A DNA stretch of 64,000 bases, from positions 4,328,641 to 4,392,640 of the forward strand of contig CP022585.1 in assembly GCA_002243285.1 (NCBI GenBank). Reading direction: 5' to 3'. The translations under genes were made by a program, and so were the position numbers. The first letter of the stretch is position 1. Each line of letters starts with the position of its first letter. This DNA comes from Candidatus Fluviicola riflensis. GTDB lineage: Bacteria; Bacteroidota; Bacteroidia; Flavobacteriales_D; Crocinitomicaceae. This document shows positions 15,778-58,002 of the stretch, piece by piece. A model generated the notes under the pieces. It was not told the DNA's origin and ran no database searches. It worked only from the letters and a program-made list of their open reading frames with translations.

Positions 15778-16656
15778 CTATTTCTTCCTGAAAACGTAGA
15801 TTTGAGAACTACATTTACCGTTCTTAGATCGTATATTGGATAACCAACCAATTCGAAGAGCGTTTAATAAAGATCCACCCTTGTATTTTTCACTCAGCAT
15901 CGAAACATAGTACGCATCAAATTTCATTGGGAGCTGTTCTTCCAATGTGAAGCCTAATTGTTCAATCAATGGAACAATCGTTTCCGGAGAAAAATGGTAC
16001 AAGTGTCGCGGAACATCATAGGCTGCCCAATACGATCCATAATAAGTACCATCAAATGAAGTATGATTCGGAACAGCGATAATCCACACTCCATTCTGTT
16101 TGATCAGCGAAGCAATCTGTTTGGTATCTTCCTGAAGATTGTAAACATGTTCGAGTACATGCCACATCGTCACACAATCATAAGAATCCGGTGCAAGCGT
16201 TGAAAGTGAATCCAGGGTTTGAAGCGTCACATTGTTTTGTTCGCGAGCAACTGTTCGCGCATCTTCATCGGGCTCCAAACCTAAAACAGTAAAACCATTG
16301 TCTTGTGCTCGTTTCAGAAAATGTCCCGTTCCAGCGCCAACATCCAACAAATCACGACCGGAAACCAATCTTTTTACCAGCTTCACCTTTTGGTTCAGCG
16401 TATAGTTTCGCACTTTGTTATAAATGCTATTCACCAATCCTTTTTTGGTAGAACTGTGTGAAACGTATTCCTCCGATTTATAATAATTACCAATGGTTTC
16501 CAATGACGGTCGCGGAGTTGTATACACCAAACCACAACCACCACATTTCAGCAATGTAAACGATTCTTTACTCAGGAAATGATCTGTTACTTCTAAAAAA
16601 GTAGCCGCTTGATTGTTATTGCAAGCCGGACAAATTTGTTCTATTGTATGTTCCAC
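15778..16656 (-). CDS. Class I SAM-dependent methyltransferase with N-terminal zinc ribbon
   Basis: A 292-residue methyltransferase. The N-terminus has two Cys pairs (CPAC near residue 9 and CGGC near 38) that may bind zinc. The SAM-binding motif I is LLDVGAGTGHFL near residue 104, and later motifs are LGLEPDEDA and DCVTMWHVLEHV. This resembles methyltransferases of surface-polysaccharide or small-molecule modification; the acceptor is unknown. The only plausible start is a GTG at 16656, because an in-frame TAA lies 12 nt upstream. That GTG lies inside a parS-like palindrome, 9 nt after the mnmG stop, and the gene is probably co-transcribed with mnmG. Confidence 0.85.
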   Translation of the reverse strand: MEHTIEQICPACNNNQAATFLEVTDHFLSKESFTLLKCGGCGLVYTTPRPSLETIGNYYKSEEYVSHSSTKKGLVNSIYNKVRNYTLNQKVKLVKRLVSGRDLLDVGAGTGHFLKRAQDNGFTVLGLEPDEDARTVAREQNNVTLQTLDSLSTLAPDSYDCVTMWHVLEHVYNLQEDTKQIASLIKQNGVWIIAVPNHTSFDGTYYGSYWAAYDVPRHLYHFSPETIVPLIEQLGFTLEEQLPMKFDAYYVSMLSEKYKGGSLLNALRIGWLSNIRSKNGKCSSQIYVFRKK

Positions 16657-16664
16657 GTGAAACG
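16649..16664 (-). promoter_or_regulatory. parS-like site 1
   Basis: TGTTCCACGTGAAACG matches the bacterial ParB-binding consensus TGTTNCACGTGAAACA at 15 of 16 positions. It spans the gap between mnmG and the methyltransferase and contains the GTG start of the latter. Confidence 0.75.
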
Positions 16665-16665
16665 T

Positions 16666-18537
16666 TTATCTTCCTAAATGAATTAATAATACCGAAATAT
16701 CGCTCGGTGAAACCCCACTCACACGTGAGGCCTGACCAATTGTAACCGGTCGGATCTTTGAAAGCTTTTCCTTTGCTTCGCTACTCAAGCTTCCTAATGA
16801 CTTATAATCTACAGAATCAGGAATTGCCAATGACTCCAAGCGTGACAGCTTTAATGCCACTTCTTCTTCACGCGCAATATATCCTTCATACTTCAACAAA
16901 ATTTCCGCTTGTTCTACTGCGTCTTCATGCTCCAACGTAAGTTGGGCGGCTAATTCTTTGACTGAATCGCTCATCGCCAACACATGATCCATGGTTACAT
17001 GTGGTCGCGTAATAACTGATGATAGTTTTACCTGCTGCGTTAATAATGAACTGCCAACACCTTCCAAAAAAGGATTCGCCACACTTGGTGAAACGCCCTC
17101 TTTTCTCAACGCACTCATTAGTTGATTCGCGGCAACGGTCTTTCTAGTTACTCGTTCCATCGCTGCACTATCCTGCAATCCTAACTTATGCGCCAACGGC
17201 GTCAAACGAACATCTGCATTATCCTGGCGAAGTAAAATTCGATATTCCGCGCGGCTCGTAAACATTCGGTAAGGTTCTTGAGTTCCTTTTGTAATCAGGT
17301 CATCAATTAACACACCAATGTAAGCTTCACTTCGCCCAAGAATAAAGGATTCGCGTTCCTGAACCTTCAGCGCCGCATTGATTCCGGCCATCAAACCCTG
17401 GCAAGCAGCTTCTTCGTAACCGGTTGTACCATTGATTTGACCAGCGAAATATAAGCCTTCAACCAATTTCGTCTCCAATGTATGTTTCAACTGGGTAGGA
17501 GGGAAGTAGTCATATTCGATCGCATAACCCGGGCGGAACATTTTTGCTTGTTCGAAACCAGGAATAGAGCGCAAGGCACGTTGCTGAACATCTTCCGGAA
17601 GCGAAGTAGAAAACCCATTTACATAGATCTCAATCGTATTCCAACCTTCCGGTTCCACAAAAATCTGGTGACGGTCACGTTCAGCAAAACGATTGATTTT
17701 ATCTTCAATACTCGGACAATAACGAGGCCCTGAACTTTTAATAGAACCATTGAACATCGGTGAACGGTCGAAACCTTCACGCAATAGTTCATGTGTTTGT
17801 TCATTAGTATAGGTAATGTGACAAGGTCTTTGAACCGACAACGGTTTGGTATCAGAATAAGAAAACTTCGAAGGGTTTTCATCACCTTCCTGTAATTCCA
17901 TCTTCGAATAATCCAATGAGCGGCCATCGATGCGTGGTGGAGTTCCCGTTTTCATTCGGCCGGCTTCAAAACCCAGAGCCAGCAAATCTTCCGTGATTCC
18001 GAAAGAAGCTTTCTCTCCAACACGCCCGCCTCCAAACTGTTTTTCACCGAGGTGAATCAATCCATTCAGGAACGTTCCATTAGTCAACACCACCGATTTT
18101 CCATAAATAGGCAACCCTAAACCTGTTTTGACACCAACAACTTTTCCGCCCTCGACGAGCAAACCATTGCTCATGTCCTGCCAAAAATCAACGTTCGGAT
18201 TCCGCTCCAACAGCAAGCGCCATTCTTCAGCAAATTTCATTCGGTCGTTTTGGGTGCGGGGAGACCACATAGCCGGTCCTTTTGAAAGATTCAGCATTCG
18301 AAACTGGATCGCGCTCAAATCGGAAACAATTCCGCTTCCACCTCCAAGCGCATCAATTTCCCGGACGATTTGTCCTTTCGCCACACCACCCATTGCTGGG
18401 TTACAACTCATTTGCGCAATCGTATTCATGTTCATTGTCACCAACAACACACTACACCCCAGTTTCGCGGCCGCATTCGCAGCTTCACAACCGGCGTGGC
18501 CACCACCCACAACAATTACATCATACTCTTTCAACAT
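16666..18537 (-). CDS. mnmG: tRNA uridine-5-carboxymethylaminomethyl(34) synthesis enzyme MnmG
   Basis: A 623-residue FAD enzyme that with MnmE modifies the wobble uridine of several tRNAs. The FAD-binding motif [19 protein letters not shown] is at residues ~10-28. Other hallmarks are [51 protein letters not shown] and the C-terminal helical MnmE/tRNA-binding domain. Length is typical. It is flanked on both sides by parS-like palindromes; mnmG (gidA) lies near the replication origin in many bacteria, which fits the oriC candidate ~8 kb away. Confidence 0.97.
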
Positions 18538-18545
18538 ACCAACAA

Positions 18546-18561
18546 TGTTTCACGTGGAACA
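18546..18561 (-). promoter_or_regulatory. parS-like site 2
   Basis: TGTTTCACGTGGAACA; its reverse complement TGTTCCACGTGAAACA matches TGTTNCACGTGAAACA at every position. It is 8 nt upstream of the mnmG start codon. Confidence 0.85.
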
Positions 18562-18593
18562 AAATTACAACTCAAATAAAGATCAATCAGAAA

Positions 18594-18609
18594 TGTTTCA
18601 CGTGAAACA
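18594..18609. promoter_or_regulatory. parS-like site 3 (perfect palindrome)
   Basis: TGTTTCACGTGAAACA is a perfect 16-bp palindrome and an exact match to the ParB-binding consensus. It lies in the 90-bp gap between ybeY and mnmG. Confidence 0.88.
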
Positions 18610-18627
18610 AAAATCAAAAAAGAAAGG

Positions 18628-19065
18628 CTAACTCAAATGTTTCACGTGGAACACGCGAAGCGCCAACATTTCATCTTCTTTTGAGCGCATCAACGATTCG
18701 TCTTCAGGAGATTTATCCTTATAACCACAGAGATGCAGGAGACCATGAACACACACGCGATTCAGTTCATCAATAAATGTATTCGACAGTTCTTTCGCGT
18801 TATCATCAACCCGATCAACGCTTATAAACAAATCACCACTCACTTCGCTTTCTTCAGAATAATCAAACGTGATGATGTCCGTATAATAATCGTGACTCAA
18901 ATGGGTTCGGTTCATCTCCAACAAATACTCGTCAGAACAAAAAATAACGGTGATTTCGCCAAGTGTCTTCTTTTCAATTTCACAAACATGGTTAAACCAT
19001 GCAAACAAAAATTCCGGGTTAATACCCGGAATTTCTTCAATATCTTCAATGTGTATTTCTACCAT
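18628..19065 (-). CDS. ybeY: rRNA maturation endoribonuclease YbeY
   Basis: A 145-residue metal-dependent RNase needed for 16S rRNA 3' maturation and ribosome quality control. The zinc motif HGLLHLCGYKD is present; the last ligand usually reads as D-H in Proteobacteria but is D-K here, a form I also expect in Bacteroidota. The start MVEIHIEDIEEIPG (19065) is chosen, since longer starts read back through the upstream gene. It is 1 nt from the stop of the upstream ATPase gene. The C-terminal FHVKH is imposed by a parS-like palindrome. Confidence 0.92.
   Translation of the reverse strand: MVEIHIEDIEEIPGINPEFLFAWFNHVCEIEKKTLGEITVIFCSDEYLLEMNRTHLSHDYYTDIITFDYSEESEVSGDLFISVDRVDDNAKELSNTFIDELNRVCVHGLLHLCGYKDKSPEDESLMRSKEDEMLALRVFHVKHLS
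18638..18653 (-). promoter_or_regulatory. parS-like site 4 inside the ybeY 3' end
   Basis: TGTTTCACGTGGAACA, again a full match on its reverse complement. It lies within the last codons of ybeY, where it encodes the residues FHVKH of the C-terminal end. Confidence 0.82.
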
Positions 19066-25284: not shown

Positions 25285-26046
25285 TTACAGCATCTTGATC
25301 CGGTTTGTCAGATCGTCTCTGTAAGAACCACCTATCGGAATCAGTTTACGGTCGTTTTCGAGCTGAAGATTCGGGAAATCGATTGCTGAAATTTTATCCA
25401 TACGAACGATGAATGAACGGTGGACACGAATGAATTGTTCATTCCCCAATTTAGACTCAATGTCTTTCATGGTAGAGTGAATCGTATAACGCGTTTCGTT
25501 GGTATTGATCACAACGTAATCTTTCAGCGCTTCGATAAAATAGATTTCGTTCATATTCAGCTTCACCAACTTGCTGTTTGACTTCACGAAGATAAAATCG
25601 TGTTGTGTTTCTTTTTCCTTGTTTTCCACAAGCGAGTAGAGCATGTCACGTTCACGTTCCACCTCTTGTTCCTTCTTGTGCTTGTACAACGCCATCTCGA
25701 TAGACGTGTGAAGGTCAATCTCTTTAAACGGCTTTAAAATGTATCCGTAAGGTTCTGTGACTTTCGCTTTGGCTAGTGTTGCTTCATCGGCGTAAGCGGT
25801 AAGGTAAATAACAGGAATGGCATATTCGACCCGAACGATCTCAGCTGTTTGAATTCCGTTCATTTCGCCTTTGAGCATGATATCCATTAACACGATATCC
25901 GGTTGCTCTTCAGCCAACAGCTCCAAGGCCTTTTCTCCGGAAGGAGCGGCTCCTATGACATTATAACCCAACTTCTTCAAGCTCGATTGAATATCCTTTG
26001 AAACAATAAATTCGTCTTCGACAACCAGTACATTGGCCTTTGTCAT
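25285..26046 (-). CDS. LytTR-family response regulator
   Basis: A 253-residue two-component response regulator. The receiver domain (~1-125) has acidic pocket residues E10/D11, phosphoacceptor D55 in VLMDIML, and the lysine in YILKPF. A linker helix leads to a LytTR DNA-binding domain (~150-250: FIFVKSNSKLVKLNMNEIYFIEALKDYVVINTNETRYTIHSTMKDIE, RVHRSFIVRMDKI). No cognate histidine kinase lies next to it. It borders the oriC candidate. The targets are unknown. Confidence 0.92.
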   Translation of the reverse strand: MTKANVLVVEDEFIVSKDIQSSLKKLGYNVIGAAPSGEKALELLAEEQPDIVLMDIMLKGEMNGIQTAEIVRVEYAIPVIYLTAYADEATLAKAKVTEPYGYILKPFKEIDLHTSIEMALYKHKKEQEVERERDMLYSLVENKEKETQHDFIFVKSNSKLVKLNMNEIYFIEALKDYVVINTNETRYTIHSTMKDIESKLGNEQFIRVHRSFIVRMDKISAIDFPNLQLENDRKLIPIGGSYRDDLTNRIKML

Positions 26047-26065
26047 AGCGTTTGGCTTTGTAAAT

Positions 26066-26073
26066 CAAAGGTA
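26066..26073 (-). promoter_or_regulatory. Minus-7 box of the LytTR regulator (TACCTTTG)
   Basis: The minus strand reads TACCTTTG, 19 nt upstream of the ATG at 26046. Confidence 0.55.
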
Positions 26074-26099
26074 TAGAAAAAAACGTTTTTACCTAACCT

Positions 26100-26460
26100 T
26101 TGTTTAAGTTTTCAATATTGTGGTTTCAGCTTGTCGAAAATACACTTTCAATTTCACATTTCCAATTAACTCGACTTTCCGGCAAAAACTAAATAATAAG
26201 AATAAAGAAAGTTTAAAGATTTAAAAAATATTTACTACTATTATTAAGGGTGTTAATAGCTGTAGAACTTTCCCGTATTTTCATTGCAAAAATGAGTTAT
26301 CCATAAAAATGACGATTTATTCACATCAGGTTATCCATCATCAGGCTGATTTTAGTGCGCTTAACCACTTATCCACAATTGTGTTAATAAAGGGTTATGT
26401 GAATAAGTAGTTATGTAAATCATATGTTAGAATTGAGTGAAACCTGTGTGAAAGTTCTCC
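26100..26460. other. Candidate chromosomal replication origin (oriC)
   Basis: This lies in a 658-bp gene-free, AT-rich gap between a minus-strand and a plus-strand gene. A very AT-rich tract (about 26180-26255) lies next to a cluster of DnaA-box-like nonamers: TTATCCATA (26297-26305), TTATTCACA (26317-26325), TTATCCATC (26331-26339), the perfect box TTATCCACA (26369-26377) and TTATTCACA on the minus strand (26398-26406). The AT-rich tract could be the unwinding element. Four parS-like sites 8-10 kb to the left, and gene orientation diverging from here, support the assignment. dnaA is not in the window. Confidence 0.65.
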
Positions 26461-26681
26461 GTAAATTTCGCTAACTTTTAGTGCTCAATCCAATAATTAG
26501 AACATATATGACGGGATGTTGAATTATGCAAGCTTTTCTTTTGAGTACTTGTAAACAGCTGCTAACAATTATTACATCTTTTGTGTTGAAAACGGATTTC
26601 ATAAATACCCTGTTTTACTGACAGTTGAAAACTACCTAAACAGGCCAATGTTTATATCTTGGTGGTTTTGTTGATAAGCGA

Positions 26682-26689
26682 TACCTTTG
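26682..26689 (+). promoter_or_regulatory. Minus-7 box of rpiB (TACCTTTG)
   Basis: TACCTTTG, a full TAnnTTTG match, 15 nt upstream of the ATG at 26705. An in-frame TTG at 26687 overlaps the box and is rejected as the start. Confidence 0.6.
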
Positions 26690-26704
26690 AAAAAAACAAC
26701 GACA

Positions 26705-27142
26705 ATGACTCAAATTATTCCCATAGGAGCCGACCACGCAGGCTTTCAGCTCAAAACAATAGTAATCGCGCATTTGCAGGCGAAAGGCTATGAAGTAAAA
26801 GATTACGGCTGTTATTCGGAAGATAGTATTGATTATGCCGATTTCGGACATCCGGTGGCTTCACATGTGGAAAATAACCTAGGAACATTGGGAATAGTCA
26901 TTTGCGGAAGCGGAAACGGGATTAACATGACAGTAAATAAACACCAGGGAATTCGGGGCGCATTGTGCTGGACACCCGAAATCGCAACTTTGGCCCGTAC
27001 GCACAACGATGCAAATATTCTCACAATGCCAGCCCGTTTCATAACCGAAGCTGCTGCGCTCGAAATGGTGGATGCGTTTTTCTCTACGGCTTTCGAAGGC
27101 GGACGTCACCAGAAACGAATCGAAAAAATCCCTGTTTGCTGA
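26705..27142 (+). CDS. rpiB: Ribose-5-phosphate isomerase B (RpiB/LacA/LacB family)
   Basis: A 145-residue sugar-phosphate isomerase interconverting ribose-5-phosphate and ribulose-5-phosphate. The start MTQIIPIGADHAGF gives the usual N-terminus. The active-site cysteine lies in VICGSGNGINMTVNK, and the conserved RTHNDANILTMPAR follows. Length is normal. An M28 peptidase gene starts 4 nt after its stop. Confidence 0.93.
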   Translation: MTQIIPIGADHAGFQLKTIVIAHLQAKGYEVKDYGCYSEDSIDYADFGHPVASHVENNLGTLGIVICGSGNGINMTVNKHQGIRGALCWTPEIATLARTHNDANILTMPARFITEAAALEMVDAFFSTAFEGGRHQKRIEKIPVC

Positions 27143-34589: not shown

Positions 34590-37500
34590 ATGATCAATCG
34601 GTTATTGGGTCTTACTACAATGCTCTTTCTGAGCGCACTGGTGCATAGCCAGCTTGCCTATCGTTTCCGTAATTTCAGTATTACCGATGGTTTGTCGCAA
34701 AGTTCCGTTACCTGTATTGTTCAGGATGACGTTGGAACGCTGTGGATCGGCACTCAAGACGGCCTCAACCGGTTCGACGGCCGACAATTCGAACTCTTTA
34801 CTTCCGATGATACCAAGGGGTTGGAAAGCGAATACATCCACTCTTCACTTAAAGCAAAAAACGGGAAGCTGTGGTTTGGTACTTCAAACGGACTTACGGG
34901 TTATGACCAGAACAAAGAGCAGTTTATTACTTATGGTGTAGGATCTAACAATCCGCTTTCCATCGAAGCAATCGCCGAAGCTGGTAATGGTGATTTGTGG
35001 TTGGGAACCTCTACACAGGGATTGGTGAAATGGGAAAACAAGACCAGGAAACTAAAGCTGGTGAATTCCAAGTTCCCCAGTAAACGCATTCTTTTTGTTC
35101 GTTTCCTGGATGATAACACGTTGTTGATCTCAACGGAAGATAAAGGCGTGTTCAGCTACAATATCAAAACAGGCCGTTGGTATAAAGTATTGACGAAAAA
35201 GAAAATTGAGAACTGGCTGGTAAACGATGCGGAATATTTCTCAGGAACCGTTTATATTCTCAGCACAAACAAAGGAATCTGGCTTTACGATTATACAACC
35301 AATACCGTTTCACCGTTTTTAACACAGATCGAACGAGATCTTGGTATCATTGAAATTGCGGACGTATTCCTGCGTTCAACCGACGAGATTTATATCGCTA
35401 CGCAGAATAAAGGTTTGCTGACCGTGTTGAAAAACAATGGTGTCTATTCCATTCATCAAAGCAAGCAGGATATTTTCCAGAAAAACGCCTTGCTGTATGA
35501 CGAAATCAACACGTTATTCCCGGACGAAAACGGCGCTATCTGGATCGGAACCTTGCGCGGACTGAGTTGTTTTGACCCGGTAAACCAGGGCTTTTTGGGA
35601 ATTGGACCTTCTGGAAACCTGAAACTGGGGTTGCCATCGGCTAGTGTTTGGGCATTTGCTGAAGATCCAGACCAAAAACAGTTGTTTGTAGCCACTGATT
35701 TTGCGGTTTCGGTATTGGACCGGTCAAAAGGGTCGTTCCAGCAATATTACCTGGCAAAAGGTTCTGAAAATGATGAATCAAGCATCATGTCGCTGCTCTA
35801 CATCAATGACCACGAGATCTTGGTAGGCTGCACCGACGGTTTGTATTTACTGTCCTACTTCGGTGCTGCGTACACCTTTAAAAAAGTCGAATACAAAAAG
35901 CTGGAAAACCCCACCAACTTTGACCGTATATACAAGATTCTACACTACAAAGACAGTCGTTATTTCTTAGCGACCAAAGGAGGTGTGCTCCTATACGATC
36001 ACGCCAAAAAAACAACGGTCAGTTTTGTACACGATTCCAAAAAACCAAAGAAAACACTTGGAGCAGGTGTATGCCGTTTGGCTTATAAAGGAATAGATGG
36101 CACCATTTATTTCGGAACAAGTACTGGCGGATTGCATGTGTTGAAAACAGATAATAACGGGGAACTTTCTATCGTTCCTTTCCGCTACAACGCACAGCTG
36201 GCGATTATTACGAAAGATTATGTTTCGGCGTTGTATCAGCCTACGAAAACCGATTTGTGGATCGCAACTACAGGTTCGGGCTTGCTCTACATGAACTTTA
36301 AAACGGGTAAAGTAGACAGCTTCTCGAAAAAGGACGGTATTCCCAATAACTTTGTATACGGAATTGTACCGGACGCCAACGGAGATCTATGGATTAGCAC
36401 CAACAAAGGGTTGGGTAAATTTGATCCGGACGACAATTCGTGCATTAACTTCTCGGAAGTCCACGGACTCATGAGCAATGAGTTTAATACCGGAGCATAT
36501 TTGGCTTCAAAAACGGGAGAATTGTATTTCGGAGGAATTGCCGGCTACAACTTTTTCAACCCGCTGACAATGAACAAGCAGCAGCGGCCGCTGGAAATCC
36601 GGTTTACCAAATTCAAGCTCGACAAAGACTGGTTGCACCCGGATGATAAAGATGCGCCGTTCAAAAAAACAATTTCAGAAGTAAACAGGATCGAGTTACC
36701 CTACGACCAGCGAAGTTTTACCTTGCACTTTGTCGCTTCCGACCTCATGAATCCGGAATTGCTGGAATACAAATACCGCCTGAAAGGTTCCGACGAAGAA
36801 ACCATCTTTTTGGGTAGCACCAACGAAATCCGGTTCAACTCACTTTCTCCCGGCACCTATACATTGGAAGTTTACGTGCGCCGAACGGATGGTGAATGGA
36901 TTTCTTCGCCCGCGACGCTCGATATTGAAGTAGCATCACCGTTTTGGTGGAAGTGGTGGTTTTGGGTGATTGCAGCCATTGTGATCGCACTGGTTACGTA
37001 TGGTGTCATTCGTGGCAGAATAGAACAGGCCCGCAGGGAACAGGTGCGGCTGGAAATGAAAATTGTGGAGCGGACCAAGGAAATCCGGGCGCAAAACGTG
37101 AAGATCGAATCGCAAAAACGGATCATCGAGGAAGAGAAGAACAAGGTTGAAGAACAAAAACGGTTGTTGCAGATCGAAAAGGACAAGTCGGAAAAACTCC
37201 TTCGGAATATCATTCCCGAATCTACAGCAGAAGAACTCAAAACAAAAGGCCGGGCATCGGCGCGAGCGTATAAAACTGTTTCGGTGTTGTTTACCGATTT
37301 TGTGGGTTTCACCAAAAGTGCCGAGCGGATGAAACCGACTGAGTTGGTGAACCGGTTGGATATTTATTTCCGGAAGTTCGATGAAATCATTGTGCGCAAT
37401 AACCTTGAAAAAATCAAAACCATCGGCGACGCGTATATGTGTGCCGGCGGAGTGCCCGTGCGCAATAATACCAATCCGATTGATGCGGTATTGGCCGCCT

Positions 37501-38495
37501 TACAGATCCAGGATTACATGCTGCTGCTGCGCAATGACGCCATTGCCAACAATACCGAATACTGGGAATTGCGCCTTGGAATTAACACCGGTGAAGTAAC
37601 GGCTGGTGTAATCGGATCAGAGCGTTTGGCATACGATATTTGGGGCGCGACCGTAAACCAGGCGCAGCGCATGGAAATGATGGGCGAGCCGGGCAGAGTA
37701 ACCATTTCGGGCGCGACCTTTAAGCTGATCGAACCGTATTTTGAATGTACGTTCCGTGGAAAAGTGCAGTCGAAAAGTAAGGGAATGATCGATATGTTTA
37801 CGGTTGAACGCATCAAACCCGAACTTTCGGTCAATGGAGAAGGCTTGTTGCCAAATGACCGTTTTCAGCAAATCGTGAACCTGCACTTATATAGTAGTAT
37901 CAATTACTACAAGGCAGAACGCCACATTATGAAAGTGCTTGAGCGCGGATTATCGTCAAAACTGCATTACCACAGTATCGCGCATACCAAAGATGTGGTG
38001 CGTGCCGTGGAACGTTATGCTTTATTGGAAGGTGTGACCGATGAAGGTTTATTCCTCTTGAAATCGGCAGCGACCTATCACGATGCGGGGTTTGTGGAAA
38101 ACTATGAGCTCAACGAACCGATCGGTGCGCGCATGGCCGAAGAGATCCTGCCGAAATACGGTTATTCCGAACAACACATTGCGCAAATCAAGGAACTGAT
38201 CTTCGTAACGCAGATTCCGCATAAGCCGAAAAATCACCTTGAGCAGATCATTTGCGATGCCGACCTCGATTATTTAGGACGGGATGATTTCCATGAAATT
38301 GCCGACAAACTGCGCCGCGAATTAAAAGAGCACGGTAAAATCGATAGTGACCGCAAGTGGGACCAATTGCAGGTTTCTTTCCTGCGCATGCATGTGTATT
38401 TCACACCGACAGCCATCGCCAGTCGCCAGGAAAAGAAGAACAAGAATCTACAGGAAGTGCTTGATCGTTTGGAACGCGATGAATATGAGGATTAG
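34590..38495 (+). CDS. Beta-propeller sensor fused to adenylate cyclase and HD domain
   Basis: A 1301-residue membrane signalling protein. Signal peptide 1-20; two-component-regulator propeller repeats ~25-690 (LWIGTQDGLNRFDG-type blades recur); Y_Y_Y-type beta domain ~700-780; a transmembrane helix ~787-808 (WWFWVIAAIVIALVTYG); coiled coil ~810-870; class III nucleotide cyclase ~890-1075; C-terminal HD domain ~1110-1290. The cyclase has metal aspartates in LFTDFVGFT and KTIGDAYM. Lys of KTIGD and Asp of YDIWG predict ATP rather than GTP, and NQAQRM supplies the transition-state Asn and Arg. The HD domain shows HSIAHT, YHDAGF and CDADLDYLG metal ligands. It probably makes cAMP in response to an external ligand; the HD domain may hydrolyse a phosphate compound. 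Confidence 0.88.
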   Translation: MINRLLGLTTMLFLSALVHSQLAYRFRNFSITDGLSQSSVTCIVQDDVGTLWIGTQDGLNRFDGRQFELFTSDDTKGLESEYIHSSLKAKNGKLWFGTSNGLTGYDQNKEQFITYGVGSNNPLSIEAIAEAGNGDLWLGTSTQGLVKWENKTRKLKLVNSKFPSKRILFVRFLDDNTLLISTEDKGVFSYNIKTGRWYKVLTKKKIENWLVNDAEYFSGTVYILSTNKGIWLYDYTTNTVSPFLTQIERDLGIIEIADVFLRSTDEIYIATQNKGLLTVLKNNGVYSIHQSKQDIFQKNALLYDEINTLFPDENGAIWIGTLRGLSCFDPVNQGFLGIGPSGNLKLGLPSASVWAFAEDPDQKQLFVATDFAVSVLDRSKGSFQQYYLAKGSENDESSIMSLLYINDHEILVGCTDGLYLLSYFGAAYTFKKVEYKKLENPTNFDRIYKILHYKDSRYFLATKGGVLLYDHAKKTTVSFVHDSKKPKKTLGAGVCRLAYKGIDGTIYFGTSTGGLHVLKTDNNGELSIVPFRYNAQLAIITKDYVSALYQPTKTDLWIATTGSGLLYMNFKTGKVDSFSKKDGIPNNFVYGIVPDANGDLWISTNKGLGKFDPDDNSCINFSEVHGLMSNEFNTGAYLASKTGELYFGGIAGYNFFNPLTMNKQQRPLEIRFTKFKLDKDWLHPDDKDAPFKKTISEVNRIELPYDQRSFTLHFVASDLMNPELLEYKYRLKGSDEETIFLGSTNEIRFNSLSPGTYTLEVYVRRTDGEWISSPATLDIEVASPFWWKWWFWVIAAIVIALVTYGVIRGRIEQARREQVRLEMKIVERTKEIRAQNVKIESQKRIIEEEKNKVEEQKRLLQIEKDKSEKLLRNIIPESTAEELKTKGRASARAYKTVSVLFTDFVGFTKSAERMKPTELVNRLDIYFRKFDEIIVRNNLEKIKTIGDAYMCAGGVPVRNNTNPIDAVLAALQIQDYMLLLRNDAIANNTEYWELRLGINTGEVTAGVIGSERLAYDIWGATVNQAQRMEMMGEPGRVTISGATFKLIEPYFECTFRGKVQSKSKGMIDMFTVERIKPELSVNGEGLLPNDRFQQIVNLHLYSSINYYKAERHIMKVLERGLSSKLHYHSIAHTKDVVRAVERYALLEGVTDEGLFLLKSAATYHDAGFVENYELNEPIGARMAEEILPKYGYSEQHIAQIKELIFVTQIPHKPKNHLEQIICDADLDYLGRDDFHEIADKLRRELKEHGKIDSDRKWDQLQVSFLRMHVYFTPTAIASRQEKKNKNLQEVLDRLERDEYED

Positions 38496-55077: not shown

Positions 55078-55494
55078 TCAATTTGGTTTAAATACAAGAT
55101 TCTCTTCTAACACTCCTTTTAGACCAGATAAATTCATCGTAGGTAAAATAATTGAATTAAACCCGCTCAATGAAGTAAGTGCAGTGATATAAGATCTTAA
55201 GTATGGAAATAATATCGCGGGAGCATTCAAGCACAAAAATTGCTTGATTTCTTCCACTTCACCTTCAAATGAAAATAACCCCATGATATCAACCTCTATA
55301 GCAATTCCTTCTTTGTTATCTTCAAATTGAACAGATAATGTGAGTTGAAATTGATTTGCTTCTAGATTTATAACTCCAAAAGGTTGAATTGTGAATTTTT
55401 CGGATGGCTCTGGCTCATTGTCCTTATCAAATTTAATAAACATTGATTTTACAACAAGAGCCTCGTGAAACCGGAAACCAGAACTCTTAAGCAT
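55078..55494 (-). CDS. SecB-like chaperone of a toxin-antitoxin-chaperone module
   Basis: A 138-residue protein. The C-terminal half carries the SecB-like signature LNAPAILFPYLRSYITALTSLSG followed by SIILPTMNL, the region that in SecB forms the tetramer interface and substrate groove. The N-terminal half is beta-rich. Two features point to the TAC role rather than general secretion: it overlaps the upstream small gene by 8 nt (stop TAA of that gene past its start), and a toxin-like gene lies just before. In TAC systems the chaperone protects the antitoxin. The gene is AT-rich like the rest of the island. Confidence 0.85.
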   Translation of the reverse strand: MLKSSGFRFHEALVVKSMFIKFDKDNEPEPSEKFTIQPFGVINLEANQFQLTLSVQFEDNKEGIAIEVDIMGLFSFEGEVEEIKQFLCLNAPAILFPYLRSYITALTSLSGFNSIILPTMNLSGLKGVLEENLVFKPN

Positions 55495-55786
55495 AAGAAC
55501 AGTTATTAAAAAAAGAAAGGGCTTCTGAAACGAAACCCTTATTTACCTCTCTTACAAAAACTGGTCTACGTTCTTCAACAGGAAGCACATTAACCCAATT
55601 TTTATTTTGTGAATTAATTACTTCTTTAAATATACCAAGTAAGTCAAACACAAAATAATTATTCAAATCAGAATATGATGTTTTTGGAACGATCAACCCA
55701 ATTTGATTTGCTTTCAGTTTAACCTGCTCGGATGTCGAATTATTCAACTCTTCGAAAGCTTTTGAAATAAAATTGTATGTTTCCAT
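55487..55786 (-). CDS. Candidate antitoxin of the TAC module
   Basis: A 99-residue protein with no recognised family. It has mixed polar and hydrophobic segments (METYNFISKAFEELNNS, FVFDLLGIFKEV) and an aromatic, hydrophobic C-terminal tail (SEALSFFNNCSYA). In known TAC antitoxins a C-terminal stretch is the chaperone-binding, otherwise unstable, part, which would fit. It starts 13 nt after the toxin stop and overlaps the chaperone start by 8 nt. The antitoxin call rests on position, size and the neighbours, not on a domain. Confidence 0.65.
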   Translation of the reverse strand: METYNFISKAFEELNNSTSEQVKLKANQIGLIVPKTSYSDLNNYFVFDLLGIFKEVINSQNKNWVNVLPVEERRPVFVREVNKGFVSEALSFFNNCSYA

Positions 55787-55799
55787 ATTGCAAATATAT

Positions 55800-56351
55800 T
55801 TATATATTACTTGATATCTTTAAAAATTTGCTTTGATTGGCAATCTTGGTGTTGCATTTTACAGAGTATATTGTTTTTGGTCGATCATCAATCCAACTAT
55901 TCTTTCCAAGTTCATTTAAAAAAAGATGCTGTTTGATAGAACTATAATTACCTACACATTTAACAACCTTTATTTTACCAAGAGTACTAGAAAAATACTC
56001 AAACAGAGTATTTAAAATTGTTCCTAATGGTTGAATCATATCACAGCCTAACTTATTACAAAACGCACGCCACAAAATTTGTATCTCCGTTATTTTATCT
56101 TTATCTGTTAAATCTAAAATATCACTATCTAAGAGAATACTTGCTTTCGCTATCCAACAGTGGCTCAATATGGAATCTTTTATTTTTTTTTCCGCCCAAA
56201 ATTTGGCATTCGCTTGGTTATCCCAGAAATACATGCCTTTTCCCATATAATGAGTGTCTTTTGATATTTGTAAAATACGATCGTTCACAAAAGATTCAAT
56301 TTTATCATCATAGTTAGCATGATAACCCACAATATTTGGTATCAATTCCAT
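55800..56351 (-). CDS. Probable ADP-ribosyltransferase toxin of a TAC module
   Basis: A 183-residue protein with a PARP-like ART pattern. The N-terminal GYHANYDDKIESFV holds the H of an H-Y type core (the YHG/YHA element of strand 1). THYMGKGMYFWDNQANAKFWAEKK has the G.G.YF element with the Tyr and the A..WA helix typical of small bacterial ART proteins. Strand IAKASILLDSDILDLTD follows. The last catalytic position (E/D/Q) cannot be fixed by eye. The gene is first of toxin-antitoxin-chaperone order, reading leftwards, and is strongly AT-rich. An ART-toxin with a SecB-like chaperone matches the CmdTAC defence design, whose toxin modifies mRNA. Confidence 0.72.
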   Translation of the reverse strand: MELIPNIVGYHANYDDKIESFVNDRILQISKDTHYMGKGMYFWDNQANAKFWAEKKIKDSILSHCWIAKASILLDSDILDLTDKDKITEIQILWRAFCNKLGCDMIQPLGTILNTLFEYFSSTLGKIKVVKCVGNYSSIKQHLFLNELGKNSWIDDRPKTIYSVKCNTKIANQSKFLKISSNI

Positions 56352-56507
56352 ATTAAAATCTATACAGTGAAGAATTAAATAGTGTTTTTTGGTTTCTTAC
56401 TGTAAATCTATAATTAATTTGGTTTCTCATTTCAATTATAATCCACTATCTGAAAAATATGTGGTTTCCCGCAATAATTGTTGCGCTAAACCACAACAAT
56501 GCGTCTT
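56352..56507. other. Gap with strong hairpin upstream of the TAC module
   Basis: The segment 56461-56494 forms a near-perfect hairpin (GTGGTTT with AAACCAC outside, GCAA with TTGC inside). Read on the minus strand it follows the coiled-coil gene and could terminate its transcription. A TAGATTTT sequence close to the toxin start (minus strand) is one base off TAnnTTTG. Confidence 0.55.
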
Positions 56508-57239
56508 TCATTTCTTAAGATAAAGTTTAACCAAACCTAGAAATTCGTCCTCAATAGGTTTCACTTTAAAATATTCAATGTTTCGTAATTCCATATAATT
56601 ATTAAACAAATCACTTTCTTCGTTCTTATATCGTTTCATATCTTCCAAACTTTTGTTTAAATATTCATTAGTTTGATTCGTCGCCTTAGCTAATATCAAA
56701 TACTCCTCTAATATGTCTTTTTGATTCTCTAAATTGTGTTGTAGTTGTAAAAATTTTGCACTAGCCCAATTATGAAAACTAAGTATTTCGGAATAAAGTT
56801 TTCTCGAAAGATTAATCAATTCTTTATCTTCAACTAGCAATTCTACTTTTGATTTTGCAATTCCTGCTTTTGCAAAAAATTTCGAGATTTCAATTCTTGT
56901 TTGCTTTAAAGATTCAATATTTGCCGTAGAATAATTGCCAAATCCAACTTCAAGGATCGAATAGAGCCATTCGCTTGTGGTTCCATGAAAATTTACAATC
57001 GCATTTCTTTCTTCGGTACGATAAGAAATCTCATTATTTAATATCCTTTGCAATTCTATTTTAAGAATCTCTTGTTCTTGGATAAATTTATCTTTAACCG
57101 ATTCAACTTCTTTTGTTAGTTGCGATAAATCTTCCTGTAGAGCGGCACTTTTCCCCTTTTCAGTTAAATAACTTTTAAAAAAGGCCAAATAAACTGCCAC
57201 AACAAGTAATACTATTTCTAAAAATATCTCTGTATTCAT
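56508..57239 (-). CDS. Membrane-anchored coiled-coil protein in the island
   Basis: A 243-residue protein. One transmembrane helix lies near the N-terminus (~5-22: IFLEIVLLVVAVYLAFF), followed by a coiled-coil region (~28-75: LQEDLSQLTKEVESVKDKFIQEQEI) and a mostly helical C-terminal domain (~85-240). The topology is N-out or N-in single-pass with a cytoplasmic helical domain. No family was recognised. AT-rich codon use is like that of the TAC genes. It may be an accessory or separate defence factor; no function is claimed. Confidence 0.75.
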   Translation of the reverse strand: MNTEIFLEIVLLVVAVYLAFFKSYLTEKGKSAALQEDLSQLTKEVESVKDKFIQEQEILKIELQRILNNEISYRTEERNAIVNFHGTTSEWLYSILEVGFGNYSTANIESLKQTRIEISKFFAKAGIAKSKVELLVEDKELINLSRKLYSEILSFHNWASAKFLQLQHNLENQKDILEEYLILAKATNQTNEYLNKSLEDMKRYKNEESDLFNNYMELRNIEYFKVKPIEDEFLGLVKLYLKK

Positions 57240-57363: not shown

Positions 57364-58002
57364 TTACTTCTTTTTTAAAAGCCTTTCAATCTCCTCTTTC
57401 GTCAGCCCTGTAACGCGCATGATCTTTTCTATGGAATCGCCTTCTTTCAATAGAACTTTCGCCATCTCATGCTTCACCTTCAGCTTTTCAATCTCCACCA
57501 TCATGGCTTTGAGTTCGGCTTCGTGCTCGCCTACAATGCGGTAGGTATCGTTGTTGCGGAGCTGCTGCATGTAGCCCAGGTCTTCGAAACTGATGTAGGT
57601 TTCTTCGGTGATGATGAGGTGATCAACGATTTTGATCTGAATGATTTCACCGGCTTTGAGCATGAGGTTGGTCATATCGAGGTCGGGTTGCGATGGGATA
57701 GTATCACCCGACGGATGGTTGTGGACCAATATGATTTTTACCGCTGTTTTATAAATCGCCATGCGGAATACTTCGGGTGCGTTGACCTGCACGCGGTTTA
57801 CCGCACCAAGGCTAATGAGCTCGATGAACAGAATCTTGTTGTTGGTATCTAACCCAATGACCCAAAAATGCTCCTGGTTGCGGCGAATCTTGTTTTCGCG
57901 CAACAGCACCTTTTGCATAATGGCGTAAAGGTCTTGTGAATTGAGTACCTGAATTTTTTGTTCTTGTGTGAGCTTCACATTCATAGCGGTAAAAATAAGC
58001 AT
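57364..58002 (-). CDS. RadC-like JAB/MPN-domain protein
   Basis: A 212-residue protein. The JAB domain (~35-150) shows the metal motif in LVHNHPSGDTIPSQPDLDMT, preceded by VLLRENKIRRNQEHFWVIGLD and ELISLGAVNRVQV. The C-terminal ~55 residues form a charged helix-turn-helix tail (EKIMRVTGLTKEEIERLLKKK). The N-terminal helix-hairpin-helix of full RadC is missing. Such short RadC proteins are frequent in mobile and anti-restriction regions; the enzymatic function is unproven. A second ATG is at 57984. Confidence 0.87.
   Translation of the reverse strand: MLIFTAMNVKLTQEQKIQVLNSQDLYAIMQKVLLRENKIRRNQEHFWVIGLDTNNKILFIELISLGAVNRVQVNAPEVFRMAIYKTAVKIILVHNHPSGDTIPSQPDLDMTNLMLKAGEIIQIKIVDHLIITEETYISFEDLGYMQQLRNNDTYRIVGEHEAELKAMMVEIEKLKVKHEMAKVLLKEGDSIEKIMRVTGLTKEEIERLLKKK

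Follow-up and report, generated by a model that had tools for sequence, protein, structure and literature searches.

The 658-bp non-coding gap at positions 26047-26704 is very probably the chromosomal replication origin (oriC) of this Fluviicola-like bacterium (Crocinitomicaceae), operating within a scheme of DnaA loading, two replication forks, a dif site and ParB that is set out below. The window examined is the whole 64,000-nucleotide stretch, bases 4,328,641-4,392,640 of a single-contig chromosome of 4,551,443 bp. This reading is favoured because several independent features agree: the gap holds a cluster of DnaA boxes and an AT-rich tract, and an origin here, already proposed in an earlier sequence-only reading of the window, gains support from a nearby parS cluster, a dif-like site placed symmetrically opposite, a core motif that occurs once per genome and the GC-skew minima of relatives.

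The gap separates a minus-strand gene for a LytTR response regulator (25285-26046) from the plus-strand gene rpiB (26705-27142), which encodes ribose-5-phosphate isomerase B and for which the ATG at 26705 is the likely start. Both the non-coding extent of the gap and the transcription of its flanking genes away from it were as the sequence-only reading had described them. RpiB is 75-89% identical to its counterparts in the nearest genomes labelled Fluviicola, a genus of Crocinitomicaceae. One genome that groups with this Fluviicola-like genus, CP034120.1 (L070, 4606342 bp), is titled Glaciecola amylolytica THG-3.7, and this title looks wrong. Further along the window, a 1301-aa protein at 34590-38495 combines a two-component regulator propeller and a Y_Y_Y domain with a following adenylate/guanylate cyclase domain. 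A low-GC island at 55078-57239 (GC 0.30 in one 2-kb interval, with short minus-strand ORFs) is possibly acquired DNA; it is adjoined by a RadC-like frame, read from its translation, at 57364-58002.

At least five nonamers near TTATCCACA within about 110 bp, one of them perfect, had been noted in the gap, and these are present at 26297-26406. On the plus strand are TTATCCATA (26297-26305) and TTATTCACA (26317-26325), each with one mismatch, the box-like TTATCCATC (26331-26339) with two mismatches, and the perfect TTATCCACA (26369-26377); on the minus strand is a second TTATTCACA (26398-26406), with one mismatch. A further minus-strand box, TTATCAACA (26669-26677, one mismatch), lies just upstream of rpiB. 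Clustering of DnaA boxes is a feature of bacterial chromosomal origins, and in the gap it is above chance: the best 200 bp holds four boxes with at most one mismatch, against a maximum of three in the best 200-bp stretch of 20 order-2 Markov simulations of the window. The cluster is unequalled by any other 250-bp stretch in the 2.0 Mb (44% of the chromosome) that was scanned for imperfect boxes, comprising evenly spaced samples and a continuous stretch around the candidate. Three-box clusters (at most one mismatch) at 104 kb and 3.275 Mb on the chromosome were considered as origins and set aside because both lie within coding frames. Genome-wide, perfect copies of TTATCCACA are not enriched, numbering 41 against 43 for the reversed control.

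Adjacent to the boxes is an AT-rich region of the kind found at origins. The sequence-only reading had remarked on a very AT-rich tract here, and the 60-bp maximum, at 26184-26243, indeed reaches 88.3% AT, a value attained by 0.001% of sampled 60-bp windows. By its composition this tract is a putative DNA unwinding element, and it is also matched upstream of rpiB in relatives. Its right-hand end passes into five plus-strand TAN triplets, TAC TAC TAT TAT TAA (26233-26247), which are candidate DnaA-trios. The last of these triplets, a GGG spacer and a weak box-like nonamer, TGTTAATAG (26251-26259), together form the core motif TATTAAGGGTGTTAATAGCTGTA (26242-26264, plus strand).

This arrangement recalls the basal unwinding system (BUS), which consists of DnaA-boxes, a GC-rich spacer and DnaA-trios (PMC6669920, PMC8287927) and for which the rule is at least three.A. 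trios and a box with no more than two mismatches within 16 bp (PMC8287927). The order of trios, GGG and box-like nonamer is the same here, (TAN)5-GGG-TGTTAATAG, and the five trios exceed the number that the rule demands. However, the nonamer nearest to the triplets has three mismatches where two are allowed, which rules out a strict assignment of the gap as a BUS. Five TAN triplets are present in 4 of 19 genomes and only two strict triplets in the remaining ones, with TAG (3'-GAT-5') adjoining the spacer in many relatives; G004 and G034 pass the BUS rule as applied in this analysis. Because the box rule fails here and most relatives have just two strict triplets, the gap is claimed only as BUS-like: unwinding of the origin may work like that of a BUS without being assigned as one.

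The general form of the core motif, TATTARGGSTGTKAATNNNTGTA, was derived from an alignment of genus members. With up to two mismatches allowed it occurs exactly once per genome in all 14 genus genomes, some 420-460 bp upstream of rpiB, and other matches in the present genome need three mismatches. Because some of these genomes, or near copies of them, went into the motif, its presence within the genus is to some extent built in; that does not apply to its uniqueness or to its occurrence in other genera. Of the 14 genus genomes, 11 have a box with no or one mismatch at +150 to +152 from the triplets, the minus-strand TTATTCACA lying at +150 from the triplet end in this one, and 11 likewise have a box at +421 to +424, which here corresponds to TTATCAACA. 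A sequence-only motif model built from 19 genomes has matches in 31 of the 59 genomes searched, those 19 included, and in G036 and G043, which belong to other families, the match is just upstream of rpiB. Core-motif matches with two mismatches in G023 and G045 were rejected, as they lie inside reading frames in unrelated contexts and look like chance. In G025 (G025:C29:157825, L254) the motif sits in a gap of about 1 kb, beside a PAS-like sensor frame and a zinc-peptidase-like frame, both read from their translations.

Closeness to parS is a further property expected of an origin. Three perfect parS sites, TGTTNCACGTGNAACA, begin at 18546, 18594 and 18638 (18546-18653), between mnmG (gidA; 16666-18537, minus strand) and the 3' end of ybeY. 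They are the only perfect copies on the whole chromosome and lie 7.6 kb from the gap. A fourth site with one mismatch is located at 16649-16664, and two-mismatch matches are scattered over the chromosome at near-background frequency. In the complete relatives G003 and G013, parS clusters are found no more than 14 kb from the same core motif.

The search for the terminus started with a pattern for proteobacterial dif, whose total matches were no commoner than those of the reversed control. Among these matches were three conspicuous, near-identical sequences, each from a different genome, which supplied a new 22-mer pattern. Allowing one mismatch, 32 of 59 genomes carry this dif-like 22-mer, 31 of them as a single copy and G021 as two, and its reversed control has no match in the 59 genomes. 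The site was picked after looking, and therefore its occurrence once per genome in the other genomes serves as its test. In the present chromosome it lies at 2,090,873, and the two arms between it and the core motif measure 2.264 and 2.287 Mb, so that the two elements split the circle 49.7/50.3% and the predicted origin would lie opposite dif, as origins do.

The GC skew of relatives points to the same place. In both G003 and G013, each sampled in 20 stretches of 20 kb, the core motif is located at the sampled skew minimum. In G013, where the motif is at 1.758 Mb and its antipode at 4.07 Mb, cumulative skew turns between the samples at 1.61 and 1.75 Mb and is highest in the one at 3.91 Mb. In G003 the minimum is at the 3.91-Mb sample, with a rise by 4.14 Mb and the motif at 4.108 Mb, and the maximum is at the 1.61-Mb sample, with the antipode at 1.805 Mb. 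The skew of the present genome is consistent with the candidate gap but does not confirm it, because its minimum is flat, its best fits fall elsewhere and its arm test could be passed by other origins. The skew maximum is sharp, near 2.07-2.12 Mb, whereas the minimum is broad. Mean skew is +0.018 in one of the arms set by the candidate and dif and -0.014 in the other (p=4e-11), though origins some hundreds of kilobases away would probably pass this two-arm test too. With the terminus fixed at dif, a density-weighted fit is best at 3.73 Mb and scores the candidate 1.6-1.9 log units lower. Thus, of the expectation that a skew minimum would mark the gap, the opposite sign of the arms stood and a sharply placed minimum did not; with fits that disagree on the place, this genome's own skew is too weak to pinpoint the origin. 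Nor did the strand bias of genes, put forward earlier as evidence for an origin, survive beyond about 25 kb. Among mechanically called ORFs, plus-strand genes to the right of the gap number 17 of 25 at 30 kb, 21 of 39 at 50 kb and 81 of 159 at 200 kb, minus-strand genes to the left number 8 of 15 at 20 kb, 15 of 39 at 50 kb and 67 of 144 at 200 kb, and 49.8% of the ORFs over the sampled genome are co-oriented with the proposed arms.

The skew could also be taken to place the true origin 150-260 kb clockwise (about 4.5 Mb to 0.06 Mb), at the switch in gene-adjusted skew, leaving the gap as an ori-proximal DnaA-binding site such as a DnaA-titrating locus. The raw cumulative-skew minimum (over 3.79-0.32 Mb) falls close to base 197, which puts it 197 kb from the candidate, and the gene-orientation-adjusted fit has its optimum at about 60 kb, with a lead over the candidate of 8.9 and 12.6 nominal log-likelihood units on two measures. 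However, the block-bootstrap 95% ranges, 3.30-1.00 Mb and 3.92-0.46 Mb (through zero), both contain the candidate gap, and a gap-free reading from 4.29 Mb round to 0.32 Mb revealed as the sole other three-box cluster the one at 104 kb in a coding frame. As the parS sites, the dif symmetry and the skew minima of relatives all favour the gap, a clockwise origin is very unlikely. It is more improbable still that the gap serves rpiB or the response-regulator gene as a promoter or regulatory region, with DnaA boxes there by chance or for DnaA-controlled transcription. The divergent arrangement of the flanking genes and the widely kept link to rpiB would suit such a role, but the core motif and rpiB are on different contigs in G014, where a similar response-regulator neighbour is kept, and in G025, where the motif lies between other genes and neither flanking frame resembles a response regulator. 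Because it is found away from rpiB in these two other genera, the core motif is not an rpiB promoter, and a regulatory role would also leave the parS and skew evidence unexplained.

If the gap is the origin and operates like those of E. coli and B. subtilis, DnaA encoded 1.89 Mb away would bind the box cluster at 26297-26406 and load onto the AT-rich tract at 26184-26250, with its TAN triplets and GGG spacer; melting of this tract would then permit helicase loading. Two forks would cover approximately 2.26 and 2.29 Mb before reaching the dif site near 2.091 Mb; there Xer action would resolve chromosome dimers, and ParB bound to the parS cluster 7.6 kb to the left would move the new origins apart. 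What can be read directly from the DNA is how the elements are arranged and conserved, and that parS, dif and relatives' skew agree; the steps just described would follow from the analogy with these two species. Like origins of the E. coli/B. subtilis type, the gap has a DnaA-box cluster beside an AT-rich tract in non-coding DNA, once per chromosome, with parS near the origin and dif opposite. It differs in not being beside dnaA and in its boxes, which are diverged and change position from species to species, with better conservation of the AT tract and core motif. It would thus be ordinary in kind, a well-supported further case of a bacterial oriC, yet one far from dnaA. For Bacteroidetes of the OMM12 gut consortium the origin was placed by a parS cluster and GC skew, with read coverage in support (PMC10197239); a parS cluster together with GC skew was used to place the origin in both studies, although those are other lineages and the placement here is from sequence alone. 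The literature searched, which did not extend to DoriC predictions, contained no mapped origin for this group. A predicted origin at the same place in a relative may already be listed in DoriC.

The gene usually taken as the origin marker is dnaA. Here it is found at chromosome position 2,465,711, its product carrying a Bac_DnaA domain, and the earlier remark that no dnaA lies near the gap is confirmed by the intervening 1.89 Mb. Both dnaA and parB are most of the way to the terminus: dnaA at 83% of the motif-to-dif distance in this genome, 77% in G003 and 73% in G013, and parB at 93%, 94% and 96%, respectively, figures that come from three complete genomes of one genus, which are not independent. 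The corresponding positions of parB and dnaA are 1922278 and 2465711 in this genome (G000:C1), 1763809 and 1353448 in G003:C1, and 4081209 and 454 in G013:C1. In all three, parB is 106-168 kb from the dif-like site, with parS at the origin. Terminus-proximal dnaA and parB raise a question of dosage. One speculative and rather doubtful answer is that the two genes are kept near the terminus, with their targets at the origin, such that their dosage follows the completion of replication and may help to time the next initiation.

A study that included Bacteroidetes reported that dnaA and the origin can lie apart (PMC10197239), and a genome project in the same order put the start of the chromosome at dnaA (PMC5219744). 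The position of dnaA here, most of the way to the terminus, urges caution against rotating such genomes to this gene. The gap upstream of rpiB provides a concrete, testable candidate origin for the group, and its motif points to the likely origin in 31 of the 59 related genomes.
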